Assembly: GCA_964023275.1 (NCBI GenBank)
Contig: OZ029922.1
Location: 1,322,741 to 1,386,740 of the forward strand
Length of the DNA stretch: 64,000 nucleotides
Origin: Norana najaformis
Taxonomy: Eukaryota > Annelida > Clitellata > Crassiclitellata > Hormogastridae
Reading direction: 5' to 3'
Shown: positions 12,860 to 63,200 of the stretch, piece by piece
How positions within the stretch are numbered: position 1 is the first letter of the stretch
Layout of the letters: each line of letters opens with the position of its first letter
Notes under the pieces: generated by a model
The model's database searches: none
The model's input: the letters and a program-made list of their open reading frames with translations, nothing else
Told to the model about the DNA's origin: nothing
Translations under genes and position numbers: made by a program

Positions 12860-14614
12860 TGTCATGTCATGTCATGTCAATTCGTCATCGTCGCGTCGCG
12901 ACGGTTGACTACATGATAGGATCGTCTTCGACCAAAGCCATCTATTGCGCGCAGCATCCAACAACCTGGTTCCCGATAAGCTAGTCCATGCCGAGATGTT
13001 GTCAATCCAACTTATCTTTGGCCTTCCGCGGCCTCGGTTCCCCTCAACAAGACCGATCATAACACTACTCTCGATGGTGTCCTGAGGATGTCTTATCACG
13101 TGCCCGAAATAACGCAACTTGCGGGCCTTAATGTGACCCAGCAGCTCTTTTTGCACCCCAGCCAGTTGGTACACCTGTTCATTGGTCATCTTCTTTGTCC
13201 AGGCAATCCGCAGTAACTTTCTGACGCACTTGTTTTCAAAAGGCTGAATGCGTCTCTCCTCTTCCTTCTTTAATGTCCAGGCCTCACACCCATATGTCGC
13301 CACCGGCCATGCCAAGGCCCTCATCAGGCGTAGTTTGGTCTTGATGCTAAGTGACTTGTTTTTCCACATCTTTGTGAGCTTAACCATGACTGCCATTCCC
13401 ATGGCTAGTCTCGATTTCACCTCAACCGTACAGTCCGCATCCACTGCTACTCTGCTCCCCAGGTACATGAAGTAGTCCACCTTCTCCAGTCTTCCATCAA
13501 CCACGTTGATCTCAAGTGCTTCGCCTGTATTTGTCATCACTTTCGTCTTTTTTGCATTGATCAGCATATGATACTCATTTGCAGCATTCTCAACACGGTT
13601 TACTAACTCCTGCAGTTGTTCTGGTGATGTGGCCAATAAGACGATGTCATCTGCGTACCTGAGATTGCTGATGATCTTGCCACCGATTCTGAAACCTCCA
13701 ATATATCCTTGTAGTGCCTTCCGCATCACTTGTTCTGCCAATATGTTGAACAGACAGGGGGAAAGATTACATCCCTGCCGGACTCCTTTTTTGACACTGA
13801 ACCATGCAGACACGAGATGATCTGTCCTGACTGCAGCGCGTTGTTGTCTGTAGAGGTTTCTTAACAGTTGGACCAGTTGTGGTGGAAAACCCATTTCAAG
13901 CATGGTTAGCCATAGCTGATCATGTTGTACCATGTCAAAGGCCTTTGTAAAGTCAATGAAGCAGAGGTACAGTGGTTGACTTCTTTCTCTAGATTTCTCC
14001 AATATGATCCTGAGGTTTGTAATCTGATCCCTTGTGCCTCTTCTTGGTCTAAACCCCGCCTGCTCTTGAGCAATCTCGTCTTCAAGCTTAGTTTGTATCC
14101 TCTCTAGAATAACTCTCAGTAGAATTTTGCTAGCTTGCGAGACTAAGGCAATAGTTCTGCAATTCTCGCAACGGAGCAAGTCCCCTTTTTAGGGAGAGGA
14201 ATGAAGATCGATTGTGTCCATTCCTCTGGCCAGTCCCCTATCTTCCACACCTCCACACAGATCTCATGCAGCTTGGCCAGTGTCATTTCCCCACCAAACC
14301 TTAACAGTTCGGCAGCTATGTCATCGGGACCACGTGCTTTAAGTGTAGCTGATTTTAGTAGGGCCCGTCTGATTTCTTCTTTCAGTGGAGGAGGCTCCAT
14401 TTCTGGGATGTTAATCACTACGTTCACATTTCCGTCATTGTATAATTCCTCGCAATATTCTTTCCATCTTTCATTCACCCTCTCTGGTTCGACGAGTTTC
14501 CTGCCAGTACTATCTTTGATGGCTGTTGTACGAGGTAGGAACGGCTTGGTGAGTTTCTTCACTGTTTGGAAAACTGACCTACTATTACCTTTTGCTGCAT
14601 TCTCCTCCAGCTCG
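12860..14614 (-). mobile_element. 5'-truncated non-LTR retrotransposon (RTE/CR1-type reverse transcriptase), inactivated
   Basis: Encodes the reverse transcriptase and C-terminus of an APE-type LINE. The upstream block (14562-14143) contains RWKEYCEELYND and FIPLPKKG. The main block (14179-12872, 435 codons) has FRPRRGTRDQITNLR, LCFIDFTKAFDMVQHDQLW, KKGVRQGCNLSP, LRYADDIVLL (catalytic YADD) and a C-terminal KLRYFGHVIRHP..GRGRPKISW segment. The two blocks are in different frames, joined at a G-run near 14170, so one base appears to be missing. The endonuclease end is absent. A short (CATGA)n tail follows the stop. CAGTTTCA at 12852-12859 and again at 14615-14622 is a candidate target-site duplication. 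The element lies about 370 bp upstream of the TEP-like start codon, in its probable 5'-UTR intron or promoter flank. Confidence 0.9.
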
Positions 14615-27942: not shown

Positions 27943-30900
27943 GTGCTGATGATAATGATGATGCTGATTTGGTACCTGAGCACTGGCGCTTCCTAAAATC
28001 TCTTCTGTAAAATGAATAATGTATCCGTGTTACTGACTGATCGTATATTAAACTAAGGTGAGGTGTTACTCTGTGGTTAGCGCCCTTGGTCTGTGACCTA
28101 ACGGTTGCAGGTTAAAGCCTGTTGAATGAAGTAAGGTCGAGATTAGCTTGGTATCGTAATTGGTTTTAAGTGGTTTTGACAATAAATTCATCGAAAACTT
28201 CGTATGTTCAACGGTCTCGATAACTTTAACTTATTGTAAGGTAAGGTAACGTTTGGAATGCCTGATGAGCGTCTTCTGAAGAAGCGCTATATGAATCTTT
28301 TATTACAATTACAATTAGGGCAAATCAGGGCAAGGCGAGGCTGTCTTTCAACCGATCCTTGGATTGAGAGATCTTGCTATAAGCATTTACAAGTAATATG
28401 CATAATTAGGCCTATTGTTAGGCATGTTAACTTATAATGTACATTTATCAATAAATGTGTTAATTGTTAATTCATATCATTCACTGGATACGTTATAAGC
28501 GATACGACGGTCCATAAGTAATTAGGTCATTGTTAATACAGTATTCAATAGTAAAAATCTGAGTGTTCTGTTGTGTGCATTTGTGTTCAGAAACCCGATG
28601 ACCAATCTCAAGACTCCAGCCGCCATTCCTCGCTATGTTCCGAGCTCAACTTCACCAACGACGAAGTTCCCTCTACTCCTCCACCGACGCTGCCACCTGC
28701 CAACGTCCTCCCCTCCGCTGCCGACCCATCAAAGCCCCGCCAGCATCCTCATCAGTCTGCCGTTCCAGTTACCACAAATGTCTCCAGTTCGGACTCCGAC
28801 TGGAGCGCAATCGATATGGGAGATTACGAGAATCGAATCAGACCGTCGAGTGCCTTCTGGAGGAAGCAGGACGGACTGTCGCTCGCCGAAAAGATCATCT
28901 TCTACAGAAACTGGAAATACCGAGTAAGCCAGGATTGAAGACTTAAAAATCATTTGCAATCGGGTATAAGTTGAGGTGCAAAAAGATGGTTTAACTAACA
29001 CTTTAATCAGGCTAACCACCTTACAAGGCAGCATTATCTAATAGACGACTCAAAATTATTTGCACTCGGATGTAAGTAGAGACAATTCGGTTGCTTTAAC
29101 TAACATATCAAGATAGGGCTAACCGCCTAACTAGTACTGAGTGGACTCCGTGTATCGACACTGGACAGGTTGTTTAGAGCACTTGTCTCTGCCACAAAGC
29201 AGTATAATTCAGATGGTACTGTCGTAAGCTGGGAAGTATACGGCACATGCTGTGATCCACTGGTCTCATGGAATTCGTTCGCTGCCGATTAACCATACCT
29301 TAACTTACTCTTCAATTCCTTTATTTTCTTCCCCGTTCTTCCTTTATTCCCATGATGTCCTTGCTTCATGTTATACCTCTCTCAGTGCCTTTGGAGAAGT
29401 CAAACCACAGACCTTGCACAGTGACAGAGCTACCTACACTGCTACTATGCACAAAATATATAAGCTAAATGTATCCAAATTAAAGTGTTCAATGCTACTG
29501 ATTTCAGGAGAACACAGTTTGAATCCCTCAATTTGACCAGAGTTACCTACGGTTAAATAGCTCTAAGTTAGCCGAATTAAAATTTATTGGCTTAAAATTA
29601 ACAGAATTCGTTTGGTGTTTGTTTTCTCTCAGAATTTACCAAAACGAGATGAAAGACACGAGGTAAGACACCAGGCAGCCACTGGTGCTTCTTCCAACTA
29701 TTTGAACACTGTTTATTCATTGATCAAGGTTCTAAATGAACCTTAGCACCATTTACGAAAACGTTGGGAGCGCTAATATCAGTTAGTTCAAAGGCGCCAT
29801 ATTAAATGCCTATAGAAACAAATAATTAGCTAAGACATGGGAAATCTTACAACACAATAATTTACAATACAATACAATTCAGTACAGTATAATACCTCAT
29901 CATCGACGCTATGTGCTTCAGGAACTCTGAACCTGCTGTCATCTTTCAACTCTAGTCGGTAGGGCTCTCTCTCTCTCTGTGTGTGTGTGTATGTGTGTGT
30001 GTGTGTGTGTGTGCATGAGCTTGCAACTGTTGACTCTCCTGGTTATCTGAGCAATGTTTGCTAATGGACGAATGTTCTATTCTTCAATAGCTAAAGTTTA
30101 AGCAGCAGCTGCTTCAACAACAGCAACATTTTCATCAGCAACAGCTTCACTAAAAATAGCTTTAGCAGCACAAGTTTAAGAAGAAGAAGAAGAAGAAGAA
30201 GAAGCTTAAGAGGCAACAGTTTTAGCAACAACAGCTACAGCAACAAGAGCTAAAACAACCATAATATCAAAGACAACACCTTTAGTAACGACAATGGCTA
30301 CGGCATCTCATAGAATCGATAGATAAATCAATGATTACTGCGACTAAAACCCAGCCGAAGTTAAACGCTTTGTCCCGTGGAAGCTTTGTTTAAAGGACAA
30401 TTAAACAAAACCCACCAGTCGAGTGCTTCTTTGTAAAGGCAGCTGATGATTGTAAAAACCGTTCAACGACTAATTAATTTATGCATAAAGTGTTCGACAG
30501 TCACCACAGCAACTGTCTCAATGGCGGCGTTCAATATATAGGACACATTTATCAATGTGTTTCATTGCTTCTATAATTAGCAATTAAGGTGATTAAAGGT
30601 AAGGTAAGGTAAGATAAGGGGTTACTGAGGCAAAGTATGTTACCTTATATTACCTTACCTAATCTTACCTTACCTTACCTTACCTACTCTTACCTTGCCT
30701 TGCCTTACCTTACCTACCCTTACCTTGCCTTACCTACCCTTACCTTGTCTTGCCTTACATTACCTACCCTTACCTTGCCTTAACATACTTTACCTTATCT
30801 CACCTGTCGTTTCGCATCTGTTGCAACAGATGGACGTGCATGAAGTGGAGTCGACGTTGATCGATTACCATCGGACGAAGTCCACCGGTCGTTCGGCTCA

Positions 30901-32038
30901 GTCGGCGGCCGTCCTTCGCCGCCGCAACAGCCTCGGCGAGGAGCGCCAGAGACCTGTCACCGTCATTCCGAAGGTGACCGAACGGGTGCCCGTCACCTTC
31001 CCGGCGATCGACAACCTGCGACAGGTGGTGGTGACGTCATCGCACGGCGTGACGTCATCGCATAACGAGGAGGAGGAGAGGTTGCCATCGATTGAGAAGA
31101 ATCAGTATGTGGCGCAAAGGAGCCCCTCGCAGAGATCAGTAAAGGTCAGGGAGAGCAACGAGCTGAGGGAGTACGACACAATTAACCGGAGAACAACGGA
31201 AGCGATAACAGAGACGCAAATCGATTCCGTTGTCCAGACGAATAAGGTTGTCGTTTTCAGAGATAACCACGTCGAGAAGTTCGTTGTCGACACAAGGTCG
31301 AAAACGGTATCGCCCAAGGTCAAGGAACAGCCGAGGAAGTTTCTGACGACGCCACCTGCAGCTGTGCAGAAAGATGAAGTGGAAAAGGCGATCAGGAAAG
31401 AATCGAAACAAGAGACGAGCCAGGAAGTGAAAAAAGAAGAAAAGAAATTGAAAGATAAGAATGAAAACAAAGAAGCAAAAGAAGAAAAGAAATCTGAAGA
31501 AAGAGTAACAAAGACATCTGAGAAAAAGGAAGTAACAAACTCAGAAGACAAGGGTCAATCAACCAACGAGAAAACCTCGGAGAAAACCCCAACCCCGCCT
31601 CCGAAGAAACCCACCGGGGGCAAACCAACTGTTCATGAAGACACCAAAGAAACCAAACTCACTCCTCCTGAACCTGAACCCCCAAGCGAAGACAACCCTA
31701 CTGGACCCGTCAAAGACAAATCGCCACCTCCCGAAGAACCCTCAAAACCCGAAGAAGAACCAGCCGCCGAGGATAAGGAAACACCTTCCAAACGATCCTC
31801 GAAGAAGCGGGCTAGAGCCCCGAAGGAGCCTAACCAACGAGCGCCTCGTCCGAATGGTCAGCCTGACCGCCTGATTAGGAAGCTGGACAAACGAGTGGAG
31901 AAAGATCTTCGAGTCCTCCAGGGTCAAACGAACGAAGAAGCGGATGACGATGACGATACCGACGTAGATGAAGATACGATGAACGACATCTTACACGGAG
32001 AAAGGAGCAAAGCGCTCGATGAGTTCCTTCAGTCATAG
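24720..32038 (+). CDS. Unrecognised gene: coiled/basic N-terminus plus long disordered K/E/P-rich C-terminus (3 exons)
   Basis: I propose exons 24720-24929, 28591-28923 and 30830-32038, all phase 0, giving 70+111+402 residues and a TAG stop. Exon 1 is charged and probably helical (DITERLLDPKQRR, then a KxxFLKRKRKLLDQIRKNK run). Exon 2 is Ser/Pro-rich and closes with a conserved-looking AFWRKQDGLSLAEKIIFYRN motif. Exon 3 begins MDVHEVESTLIDYHRTK and moves through a Lys/Glu region (about residues 380-460 of the whole protein), a Pro-rich stretch (TPTPPPKKPTGG), a basic cluster KRSSKKRARAPK that could be a nuclear signal, and an acidic DDDDDTDVDED tail. No signal peptide or membrane segment is seen and I recognise no family. 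A nuclear or cytoskeletal scaffold is possible; that is inference. Further exons may exist inside the two long introns. Confidence 0.68.
25066..25255 (+). repeat. 46-bp tandem repeat bearing splice-donor-like AGGTAAAT
   Basis: About four units of ACTCACCTGAATGTCGTACA..CAAAGGTAAAT. Units resemble 24955-24990 (GCGCAGGTAAATAGTCACCT), just after the exon 1 donor, so the array probably arose from that border. Confidence 0.85.
26563..26715 (+). repeat. (CATAA/CATAG)n array
   Basis: ATAACATAGC units with a duplicated CATTTTAACGGCG insert. Confidence 0.85.
27195..27262 (+). mobile_element. SINE, second family, 3' fragment
   Basis: CAGCGGCATCGATTGATGCT and TTAGACAGTGGCG, matching 6550-6590. Confidence 0.45.
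27777..27965 (+). repeat. GAT/ATT/GTT trinucleotide cluster
   Basis: GATGAT, then TTATTA, TTGTTG and a second TTATTA run. Confidence 0.85.
28068..28320 (+). mobile_element. tRNA-headed SINE with LINE-like 3' tail
   Basis: A tRNA-like head (GTGGTTAGCGCCCTTGGTC, then ACGGTTGCAGGTTAAAGCC as A/B-box remnants) and body, ending GAAGCGCTATATGAATC and ATTACAATTACAATTA. The end matches the LINE 3' end at 20947, so the two probably share replication machinery. Confidence 0.7.
28591..28923 (+). CDS. Unrecognised gene, exon 2
   Basis: Acceptor TTTGTGTTCAG|AAACCC and donor TACCGA|GTAAGC, 111 codons. It encodes KPDDQSQDSSRHSSLCSELN, a Pro-rich stretch and the C-terminal SSAFWRKQDGLSLAEKI segment. All three frames are open here; this one is chosen because it is phase-compatible on both sides and has clean splice sites. 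Confidence 0.66.
29135..29300 (+). mobile_element. SINE body fragment
   Basis: Shares CACTTGTCTCTGCCACAAAGCAG.. and GTAAGCTGGGAAGTATACG with the SINE at 12660-12725. Confidence 0.5.
29965..30013 (+). repeat. (CT)n(GT)n microsatellite
   Basis: CTCTCTCTCT followed by GTGTGTGT with one ATGT interruption. Confidence 0.9.
30177..30206 (+). repeat. (AAG)n tract in an Ala/Gln/Ser-like trinucleotide region
   Basis: Pure AAG repeat inside 30080-30300, a stretch rich in CAGCAA/AGCAGC triplets. Confidence 0.85.
30597..30805 (+). repeat. Inverted GGTAA...TTACC pentanucleotide arrays before exon 3
   Basis: A short (GGTAA)n is followed by a long (TTACC)n, able to fold back. The TTACC part ends about 25 bp before the acceptor of exon 3 of the plus-strand gene. 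Confidence 0.85.
30830..32038 (+). CDS. Unrecognised gene, exon 3 (terminal)
   Basis: Acceptor GTTGCAACAG|ATGGAC; 402 codons then TAG. Codon use and the uninterrupted low-complexity K/E/P composition indicate real coding. The frame also stays open upstream to 30695 through a TTACC array, so a start inside the array is a formal alternative; splicing at 30830 is preferred. An AATAAA at 32416-32421 lies in a SINE tail 380 bp downstream and might serve for polyadenylation. Confidence 0.8.
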   Translation: MDVHEVESTLIDYHRTKSTGRSAQSAAVLRRRNSLGEERQRPVTVIPKVTERVPVTFPAIDNLRQVVVTSSHGVTSSHNEEEERLPSIEKNQYVAQRSPSQRSVKVRESNELREYDTINRRTTEAITETQIDSVVQTNKVVVFRDNHVEKFVVDTRSKTVSPKVKEQPRKFLTTPPAAVQKDEVEKAIRKESKQETSQEVKKEEKKLKDKNENKEAKEEKKSEERVTKTSEKKEVTNSEDKGQSTNEKTSEKTPTPPPKKPTGGKPTVHEDTKETKLTPPEPEPPSEDNPTGPVKDKSPPPEEPSKPEEEPAAEDKETPSKRSSKKRARAPKEPNQRAPRPNGQPDRLIRKLDKRVEKDLRVLQGQTNEEADDDDDTDVDEDTMNDILHGERSKALDEFLQS

Positions 32039-40370: not shown

Positions 40371-40736
40371 AATTATTGGCAGTCATACTTATAGAGGAAC
40401 ACAGGGTTGAAAGCTGCCAAAACGTCAGTAAACACGGACGTCGAGGAGCGTCTTAATTACACTGGTGTGGGCGAATATCAGACACTGCGTTCTAAGATGA
40501 TATCCATCAACATGGAATCTTAAAAGCATGCTTTTCTTGTTAAGTTTTAGCCTGACGTCGTTCTGTTGACAATGGCCATTGTCAAAACCCACTAGCGATC
40601 GATTCCGAGTCGAGTCTTCACCGAATCGTGACCAATTGGCAGATCAGAAACGAACAGCCTTGCGAGTGATTTCTCCTTGTTTCTTCTCAACCGTTCCGCT
40701 TCATTTACCCGTCAAGCTTGACCTGTCAGAGCCAAA

Positions 40737-41327
40737 ATGAGATTAACTTTTACTCTTGTCGCTGCTGTCATGCTCATGCGTGTCATGATTGGAGAAATGG
40801 CTCCAAGTTTCGGTGAAGATTCAGCGAACCGTGACGAAGCGTTCTCAGCCGATGACATTCTTGGAGATTCATTGCCAGAGGGCGCTGTTGCTCAAGACAA
40901 CCGGGAGAGCGAAGAGGTGCCAGAACGCATTATTGGCATTGGCTTCTTAGAAGCAAATCCGACAATCGAGAAGAGAAGCCAAGCGATATGGGAAAGCCCC
41001 TGGGTTGAAGGTTACCCCCCGAACCGCAGGGCGTTTAGTCCGTGGGGTGGTAAGAGGCACTTCAATCCGTGGGGCGGAAAAAGATTCAAGGCCATCTACT
41101 TGGAGAGGAAGGCGGAATCCATCCTTGACAAGAGACCGGGATTTCAGCCGTGGGGTGGGAAACGAGCCGTCCAGCTGGAAGAGCATGGAAACGACGCCAC
41201 GGAAAAGAGAGCGTTCAGTCCCTGGGGTGGAAAACGGTCACCATCACGTGATCAGAAGAACGCCGTCGAAAACAACGTTCGTCAGAGACTCAACAAGAAC
41301 AAAAAGCTCTTCATCGTGAAACCATGA
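40737..41327 (+). CDS. Neuropeptide precursor with four FxPWG-amide peptides
   Basis: 196-residue secreted prohormone in one exon. Residues 1-20 (MRLTFTLVAAVMLMRVMIGE) look like a signal peptide. After an acidic spacer come dibasic-bounded segments: SQAIWESPWVEGYPPN-RR, AFSPWGG-KR (41031-41057), HFNPWGG-KR (41058-41084), PGFQPWGG-KR (41136-41165) and AFSPWGG-KR (41211-41237), separated by non-repeated spacers also ending in KR. Convertase cleavage, carboxypeptidase trimming and use of the last Gly as amide donor predict AFSPWG-amide (two copies), HFNPWG-amide and PGFQPWG-amide. I do not recognise FxPWG-amide as a standard named family. The first two copies are directly adjacent, as in classical multicopy precursors. 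An acceptor-like CTGTCAG|AGCC sits 8 bp before the ATG, so a non-coding 5' exon is likely. AATAAA lies 164 bp past the stop. Confidence 0.92.
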   Translation: MRLTFTLVAAVMLMRVMIGEMAPSFGEDSANRDEAFSADDILGDSLPEGAVAQDNRESEEVPERIIGIGFLEANPTIEKRSQAIWESPWVEGYPPNRRAFSPWGGKRHFNPWGGKRFKAIYLERKAESILDKRPGFQPWGGKRAVQLEEHGNDATEKRAFSPWGGKRSPSRDQKNAVENNVRQRLNKNKKLFIVKP

Positions 41328-41490: not shown

Positions 41491-41496
41491 AATAAA
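41491..41496 (+). terminator. Polyadenylation signal of the neuropeptide gene
   Basis: AATAAA, 164 bp after the TGA; the first clear canonical signal after the precursor, in otherwise unique sequence. Confidence 0.6.
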
Positions 41497-60200: not shown

Positions 60201-63200
60201 TTTTTTGTTCTGTCGAAGGGTATCTAAAATAAAGTTGTGTGACGTAAAGTAAAGTAATTTGACTTCAACGGCCCTGACAGTCGTAAGATGCCACTAAACA
60301 CCGGAAACTACCACTTCGTATATTGCAGGGTATCAAGACTGGCCACTGAAATTAATTTATTATTTGTGATAATCTATTATTTATGAGACACGGTGAGGTC
60401 GACGTCAACAACCCCGATAGCCATAAAAATCCATTCTGCCAGAGTCACTAAGTAGCTACCATCAACACTTGAAAACTACTTTCTCTCAGGGGGTGGGCTG
60501 GGAACACCTTTGAGTGGATGAATGAATGAATGAACACATGAGGCTAGAAATCTTGACTCACTTCCGAGTCCGTGATCCCTGGCTCGCTGGATGTTGAGAG
60601 AGAGCAGGTCGAGTCCTGGACCATGAGGAGGATTTTCGGTGAAGAGACTTCGAGTGATCTGCTTCGTGAAGAACGTGTCGAAAGTCTGCGACGGTTCCTC
60701 GACGAGGCCACGGATGAATGCATCGATTCCACCTGCCTCTGTGTCGTAGAAGTGGAGAGGTTTGTTGAAGGTCTGTAAAGAAAAACACCGCGGTGCTGGA
60801 TTCGTTAACAACTGGCCTTGCAATATTCTATGTAACAAAAGGCTTAGACAAGTGCTTGCGAGGTCCCGCTGTATGTGTGTGCTAGTGAACGTTATCTGGC
60901 GAACATGAGAACAATAGAGGTTAAATAAAGCGATATCCTGGGGTATAGTTCCCAAAATCGGAACAGGTGTTGGCAATTGCTTTTATGGCCCCCATAAATG
61001 GAAGCAAGAGTGAATTTCTTCTGAAAGGACATCTTGAAGAACTAGGGTTAGTTGCTCTGGGCGGGTAAGGTTAGTCGTCCATTAATTGTTTTCTCTTGCC
61101 CATAGCTTCACAGTGCAACGTACTGTACAGTATGCAGTTATAACGGGATATCATAGATCTGCTGTTGGACTGCTGTTTAGTCTGGACCTATTGCATTGCG
61201 CTGAACTACAATGTATTGTATTGCATTGATTTGTATCGTATTCTAGTGTTTTAGTTTACTGTACTATATTTCAATGTACATTTCTGCAGCGTTTTGTACT
61301 GTGTTGTATTGCGTTGTATAATCTCAAAAGAATTTGTTATGCTCACACACTCCAAGTCAGGTCATTCTTGATCTCGCAGATTGGACGTTACATAAATGTT
61401 CCATTGCAAACCCAATAAAAGGAATGACTTCTGTACTGTAAAGTAAAGTATACCTCTGAGAGGAAAAGGCGATCGTTGACCTGGTGATGTTCGTTCGTGC
61501 GATGTAGTTTCTCCTGGAGCAGAGTATGTCCGATGCGGAAAGCGGCCGACGCAAAGGAGTTCGGTACACGACCGTCCAACGTCGGGTCATAACCTCAAAG
61601 AAAAAACAGGCCACAATCAGTAAAGGCGCTATATGAACACTCGGATACTCGCATACAAAGGATAAGAAGAGAACAGTGCAAAAGAATGAGAAGCAAGAAA
61701 ACTGGCGCATATAAACTATCGATATTGTTTATAGTTTATTTCGTTCAAGTTTTATTCAAGTTAGATAGGCTGAGTACAGATATAGATTGATTTAATATAG
61801 ATATAGTATATATATATATAAGTGCATATATATAATATATATGGTAGATATAGTAAAGAATTGATATAGATAGATATAGCTAGGTATAGATATAAGTTAG
61901 GTAAGATCAGTGCAGGTTAGGTCAGTTCAAGTTACATTAGGTTAGGTTAGATCAGCATAAATTAGGTCAGAGTGGCTTAGACTATATTCGATCAGTCCTC
62001 TTCCTCATTGCCTGGTCTCTACACGGATAATATACGTTCGCTGTACTCGTGTTATAGCTGTCTTTTCATTCTGGTTGGATTTGAACAGGTCCTAGATGGC
62101 CACCGACCTTTGTAGTATCCGCCTCGAACAAGGTCCAGCTCATTCTCCTTGATGATGGTTGGCCCAAGCAGGAGTGGCAGCCACTCGTTGAAGGTGATGT
62201 GCTGAATCACAGCAACCATCAGCCGACGGGTCTCTTGGAAAAGCTGCTCACCCATCCAGTGCGGGTTGAGACGGTGCAGGTGCTCCTCGAGGTGGTTGTG
62301 GTATCGGACGAGGACGATGTGAATCATTCCAAGTCCGGCATTCTCATTCACGCGTGGATCGCCTGAAATCGCAATATTTATAGGGCGCATTTTCATGGAA
62401 GCTATTCAGATTAATTTAAGCATTTATATAGCGCCTCTCGGTGGAAATCCCTCAGTAAAGTTGTAGTCTTATATCTGTCTGTAATATAACACAGGACGGA
62501 TGGATGGGTGGATGTTAAATATTATTGGTTTATCTTATAACTCATCTTTTATGTGAGGTTCCTAAACTGCGCTATATAAATGCTTGCATATATAATTACA
62601 GCCATATGTGGATAATGTATTACTCTGTCTCTCTCCTTCTGCCTATGCTTGTTTCTCTCTCCTCTCTCGCTTTCGCACTCACTCTCTCTGTCTCTCTGTT
62701 TGTCTGTCTCTCTCTCTCAACACACAGGACACACAGCATAGAATTGTTATCAGAAATAAAAACCTCACAGGCAGAGAATGGCGGCATCACCTGCTTGCAG
62801 ACAGACGTGTGTTTCGTTTAAGTTTTCGCAGTCGCTTGGCATCGACGAGGTCACAACCTCTTTTGGTAGGAGGGGCTTGTAACGGTTGCCATGGGGATGA
62901 GCAGTCACTGCCATTCGACCACGCCCCGCGTCTGAATAGTCGCGCAGAAGGTCCATTTCCTCCTGAGTACTTCCATAGACCTCAGACGCATCCAGCCAGT
63001 GCGTCACTTGATCCAGATGCTCCCTTGGACCTAAAGACAGACCAACAACGGATACAGAGTCAGGTGAACGTCACCCCAAACAGGCGACCTATAGCTTAAA
63101 TAAATATTTACTGGAATGATAATTTTTATCATGAGCTTGGCACTCCATCCGGGTTTTATCCCATCGATCAGTCCAATCACCCGTCCCTGCATCAATCCAT

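Follow-up and report, generated by a model that had tools for sequence, protein, structure and literature searches.

Insect leucokinins (kinins) have FXSWGamide or FXPWGamide at the C-terminus, and in other invertebrates the ending follows the pattern FX1X2WX3amide, in which X3 is S, A, or G (PMC7913504). The tick kinins described for Rhipicephalus microplus and Ixodes scapularis come from multicopy precursors with dibasic cleavage sites, have the core FX1PWG-amide with Pro predominant at X2, and include QQDSKNAFSPWGa, EDKNAFSPWGa, and GADDPFNPWGa (PMC6692460). Among the moth kinins reported are YFSPWG-amide (helicokinin I) and VRFSPWG-amide (PMC5295023, PMC8529013). For the receptor of the leucokinin-like peptides of Aplysia (ALK; receptor ALKR), IP1 responses were recorded, and F, W, and the C-terminal amide were each reported as essential (PMC9562341). 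Leucokinin has also been reported in the annelid Platynereis (PMC3890597), in the annelids Urechis and Capitella (PMC7913504), and, according to PMC8557429, in nemerteans but not in brachiopods or phoronids. A literature search combining leucokinin with earthworm or leech gave no clitellate leucokinin in the titles found.

The window, i.e., the whole stretch of 64,000 nucleotides that was analysed, contains on its forward strand a gene that very probably encodes a leucokinin (kinin) prepropeptide of a probable annelid, an assignment that rests on a short core and on the architecture of the precursor. The features of the locus are as follows.

40728..40729, forward strand: possible splice acceptor AG (...gacctgtcag), 8 bases 5' of the ATG; motif match only
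40737..41327, forward strand: leucokinin-type prepropeptide, 196 aa; single open frame, ATG to stop
40737..40796, forward strand: probable signal peptide, approximately the first 20 residues; judged from the hydropathy maximum at residues 3-13
40977..41030, forward strand: SQAIWESPWVEGYPPN-RR, without amidation, read as a spacer or as a decayed copy; from translation and codons
41031..41057, forward strand: paracopy 1, AFSPWG-Gly-Lys-Arg, predicted peptide AFSPWG-NH2; from translation
41058..41084, forward strand: paracopy 2, HFNPWG-Gly-Lys-Arg, predicted peptide HFNPWG-NH2; from translation
41136..41165, forward strand: paracopy 3, PGFQPWG-Gly-Lys-Arg, predicted peptide PGFQPWG-NH2; from translation
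41211..41237, forward strand: paracopy 4, AFSPWG-Gly-Lys-Arg, the peptide of copy 1 in other codons; from translation
41491..41496, forward strand: AATAAA, possible polyadenylation signal, approximately 160 bases 3' of the stop; motif match only

Translation of positions 40737 to 41327 runs from an ATG through 196 residues without internal stops, whereas the opposite strand is interrupted by stops. Hydropathy of the precursor peaks in an 11-residue stretch beginning at residue 3 (mean Kyte-Doolittle value, 2.43); past residue 30, the best 11-residue mean is 1.26. Upstream of the start codon, a 5'UTR intron is possible: pyrimidines occupy 13 of the 20 bases preceding the AG at 40728..40729 and 15 of the 20 preceding an alternative AG ending at 40716. 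Pfam includes a short model for kinin; scanning the window precursor against Pfam gave no family at an E value of ≤1. A sequence search of the PDB returned a single match, a centromere protein with an E value of 0.29, which was judged to be due to chance. Scanning for bacterial promoters and terminators yielded a single hit of each, roughly what shuffled sequence is expected to give, and such models are unsuited to an animal gene. The Rfam search of the whole window at gathering thresholds gave no matches.

Four copies of FxPWGGKR are present, with their F codons at 41034, 41061, 41142, and 41214. The residues preceding the cores are RR-A, KR-H, KR-PG, and KR-A, and copies 1 and 2 adjoin directly, so that the initial annotation was right to see a multicopy neuropeptide precursor in an intact frame, its first two copies back to back. 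All four cores agree with FX1X2WX3-amide, reading F-x-P-W-G followed by the amidating Gly, and each is bounded by predicted processing sites, GKR on the 3' side and RR or KR on the 5' side; mature peptides ending in PWG-amide, as had been proposed, are thus the predicted products. The F, the W, and the amide donor, corresponding to what is essential at the Aplysia receptor, occur in every copy. The proposal that these peptides form an undescribed family falls on the ground that the annotation itself had named, because FXPWG-amide is the C-terminus already published for leucokinins and kinins (PMC7913504, PMC6692460, PMC5295023). The family is known, and the window gene very probably adds a member to it. 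As for the diverged fifth peptide that had been considered, the stretch SQAIWESPWVEGYPPN-RR does exist and retains SPW, but it lacks F at the core position and Gly before RR and hence is not an amidated peptide of the FxPWG kind; it may represent spacer sequence or the remnant of a decayed copy.

At the nucleotide level, the paracopies share 74 to 78% identity with copy 1 across 23 bases. Leaving aside W, which has a single codon, the cores share six invariant positions (F, P, G, G, K, and R), and at each of them the codon differs among copies with no change of the encoded residue in any of the four cores. Codons that vary while the core residues stay the same point to selection on the peptide rather than to a fresh duplication, in keeping with the earlier observation of a conserved core set against variable spacers.

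The likeness to the tick kinins extends from multicopy architecture and dibasic cleavage to the peptide ends AFSPWGa and FNPWGa; unlike the window gene with its four copies, however, the tick precursors, from another phylum, have 17 and 19 listed copies, and most of the tick peptides carry longer N-terminal extensions (PMC6692460). Helicokinins I and II and the leucokinins of Hyphantria cunea, as far as described in the sources consulted, have the same FSPWG-amide pentapeptide core and a short N-terminal extension, but they are from insects and number three per precursor, one of them with FSAWG. The Aplysia peptides share an FXXWX-amide core and a multicopy precursor, which differs from the window gene in being molluscan and in its reported content of up to 40 putative peptides. 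The leucokinins of Platynereis dumerilii, Capitella teleta, and Urechis unicinctus belong to the same family and probably to the same phylum, a likeness drawn at family level from their reported occurrence (PMC3890597, PMC7913504).

The placement of the window gene in a probable annelid draws on another gene family. The erythrocruorin linker domain PF16915 gave 29 matches in the genome, all over the cut-off, with a best score of 118.4 bits, and the translation of this best match in turn matched chains named 'Hemoglobin linker chain L1' with up to 186.8 bits (E value, 1.4e-54). We take these chains to be earthworm proteins and PF16915 to be an annelid domain; on this one gene family and the assumed taxonomy, the linker matches probably point to Annelida. 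The genome search for a mollusc haemocyanin domain, run without a positive control, gave no match. Elsewhere in the assembly, contig C15, a nuclear contig, carries four COX1-like fragments with stops (C15:412069-412726 and 570464-571281), which are probably inserted mitochondrial DNA. On its reverse strand, the window itself also contains parts of one multi-exon gene at 60476-63070, where three or more stretches match animal haem peroxidase (PF03098), and a retroelement fragment in open frame at 12872-14188 with a reverse transcriptase domain (PF00078; E value, 3.3e-37). On the forward strand lies a 469-codon open frame (30629-32038) whose charged product is of low complexity, ends in an acidic tail, and has no Pfam match at an E value of ≤1.

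The genome searched comprises 608 Mb in 17 contigs, and the core scans covered cores of the WGGK(R/S) form. The DNA pattern F.PWGGK(R/S) matched six times, four of them in the window gene, whereas the backwards control matched nowhere. The exact FxPWGGKR code occurs in two places only, the window gene and an open reading frame on contig C16. The wider pattern F..WGGK(R/S) gave 10 exact matches, these 6 and 4 extra ones, compared to 12 for the reversed control, and is as a whole at chance level. When the matching frame was read over 200 residues at each of the four extra sites, a single core was found with no repetition, and these sites are therefore taken as chance, which leaves the window gene and the C16 gene as the only leucokinin candidates with a WGGK(R/S) core.

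The open reading frame on contig C16 (C16:7161157-7161753, forward strand, equivalent to L020:2158-2754) is intact, encodes 198 aa with an N-terminus that appears hydrophobic by eye, and holds the other two genome-wide F.PWGGK(R/S) matches. Its cores are FTPWGGKR and FHPWGGKR, with a degenerate core, EFHPQRGGK, between them. A 94-base partial copy of the region of its first core lies 577 bases upstream (L020:1886-1979; 83% identity) and reads RFTPWGRK, representing either a duplicate that has decayed or an additional exon. Aligned directly, the window and C16 precursors are identical at 28 of 70 positions (40.8 bits; E value, 2e-9, for a single comparison), mainly in the core region. Used as query against the whole genome at an E value of ≤0.001, the window protein recovered only its own gene and not the C16 gene. 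Given that the alignment is centred on the cores and that the genome search missed C16, common descent of the two genes over their whole length is likely rather than established.

Against this background, the leucokinin assignment can be weighed against two other explanations. Short cores are able to converge, and the N-terminal part and the spacers of the precursor are without a Pfam match, so that an undescribed family resembling leucokinin at the C-terminus, and acting on a different receptor, might be imagined; we consider this improbable, since every constrained element of the core (F, W, G, and the amide) matches, Pro stands at X2 as in ticks, leucokinin is already reported for annelids (PMC7913504, PMC3890597), and the scans found, besides the window gene, a related-looking gene and no other WGGK(R/S) candidate in the assembly. 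That the locus is a chance open reading frame or a functionless pseudogene is scarcely credible, because its frame is intact over 196 aa, the invariant residues of the four cores show synonymous changes only, four exact pattern matches cluster at this gene compared to none in the control, and among 200,000 residue shuffles of the protein one F..WGG[KR] core arose in 66 and two or more arose in none.

If the window gene is a leucokinin precursor, as we favor, established neuropeptide biology suggests that its probable signal peptide would route it to the secretory pathway, that convertases would cleave at KR and RR, and that, after removal of the basic residues by a carboxypeptidase, the final Gly would be converted to the amide. 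The predicted products are AFSPWG-NH2, released twice, HFNPWG-NH2, and PGFQPWG-NH2, with calculated [M+H]+ values of 663.3249, 756.3576, and 787.3886, respectively; a Pro directly following KR may slow cleavage, as would apply to paracopy 3. The peptides would presumably act on a leucokinin-type G-protein-coupled receptor, which by analogy with the Aplysia receptor probably raises IP3 and calcium, and may serve roles such as muscle control, fluid balance, or feeding.

The analysis thus replaces the claim of a novel neuropeptide family with what is probably an annelid leucokinin gene, one whose predicted peptides are clear. With some reserve, we lean toward the view that this animal has two precursor genes of leucokinin type, each on its own chromosome, and that their peptide sets may have split between them the functions of a single ancestor. 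Species with more than one leucokinin precursor are few (PMC7913504), and if both genes are expressed, they would represent a further case of such duplication and raise the question of whether the peptides of one differ from those of the other in expression or in receptor preference.
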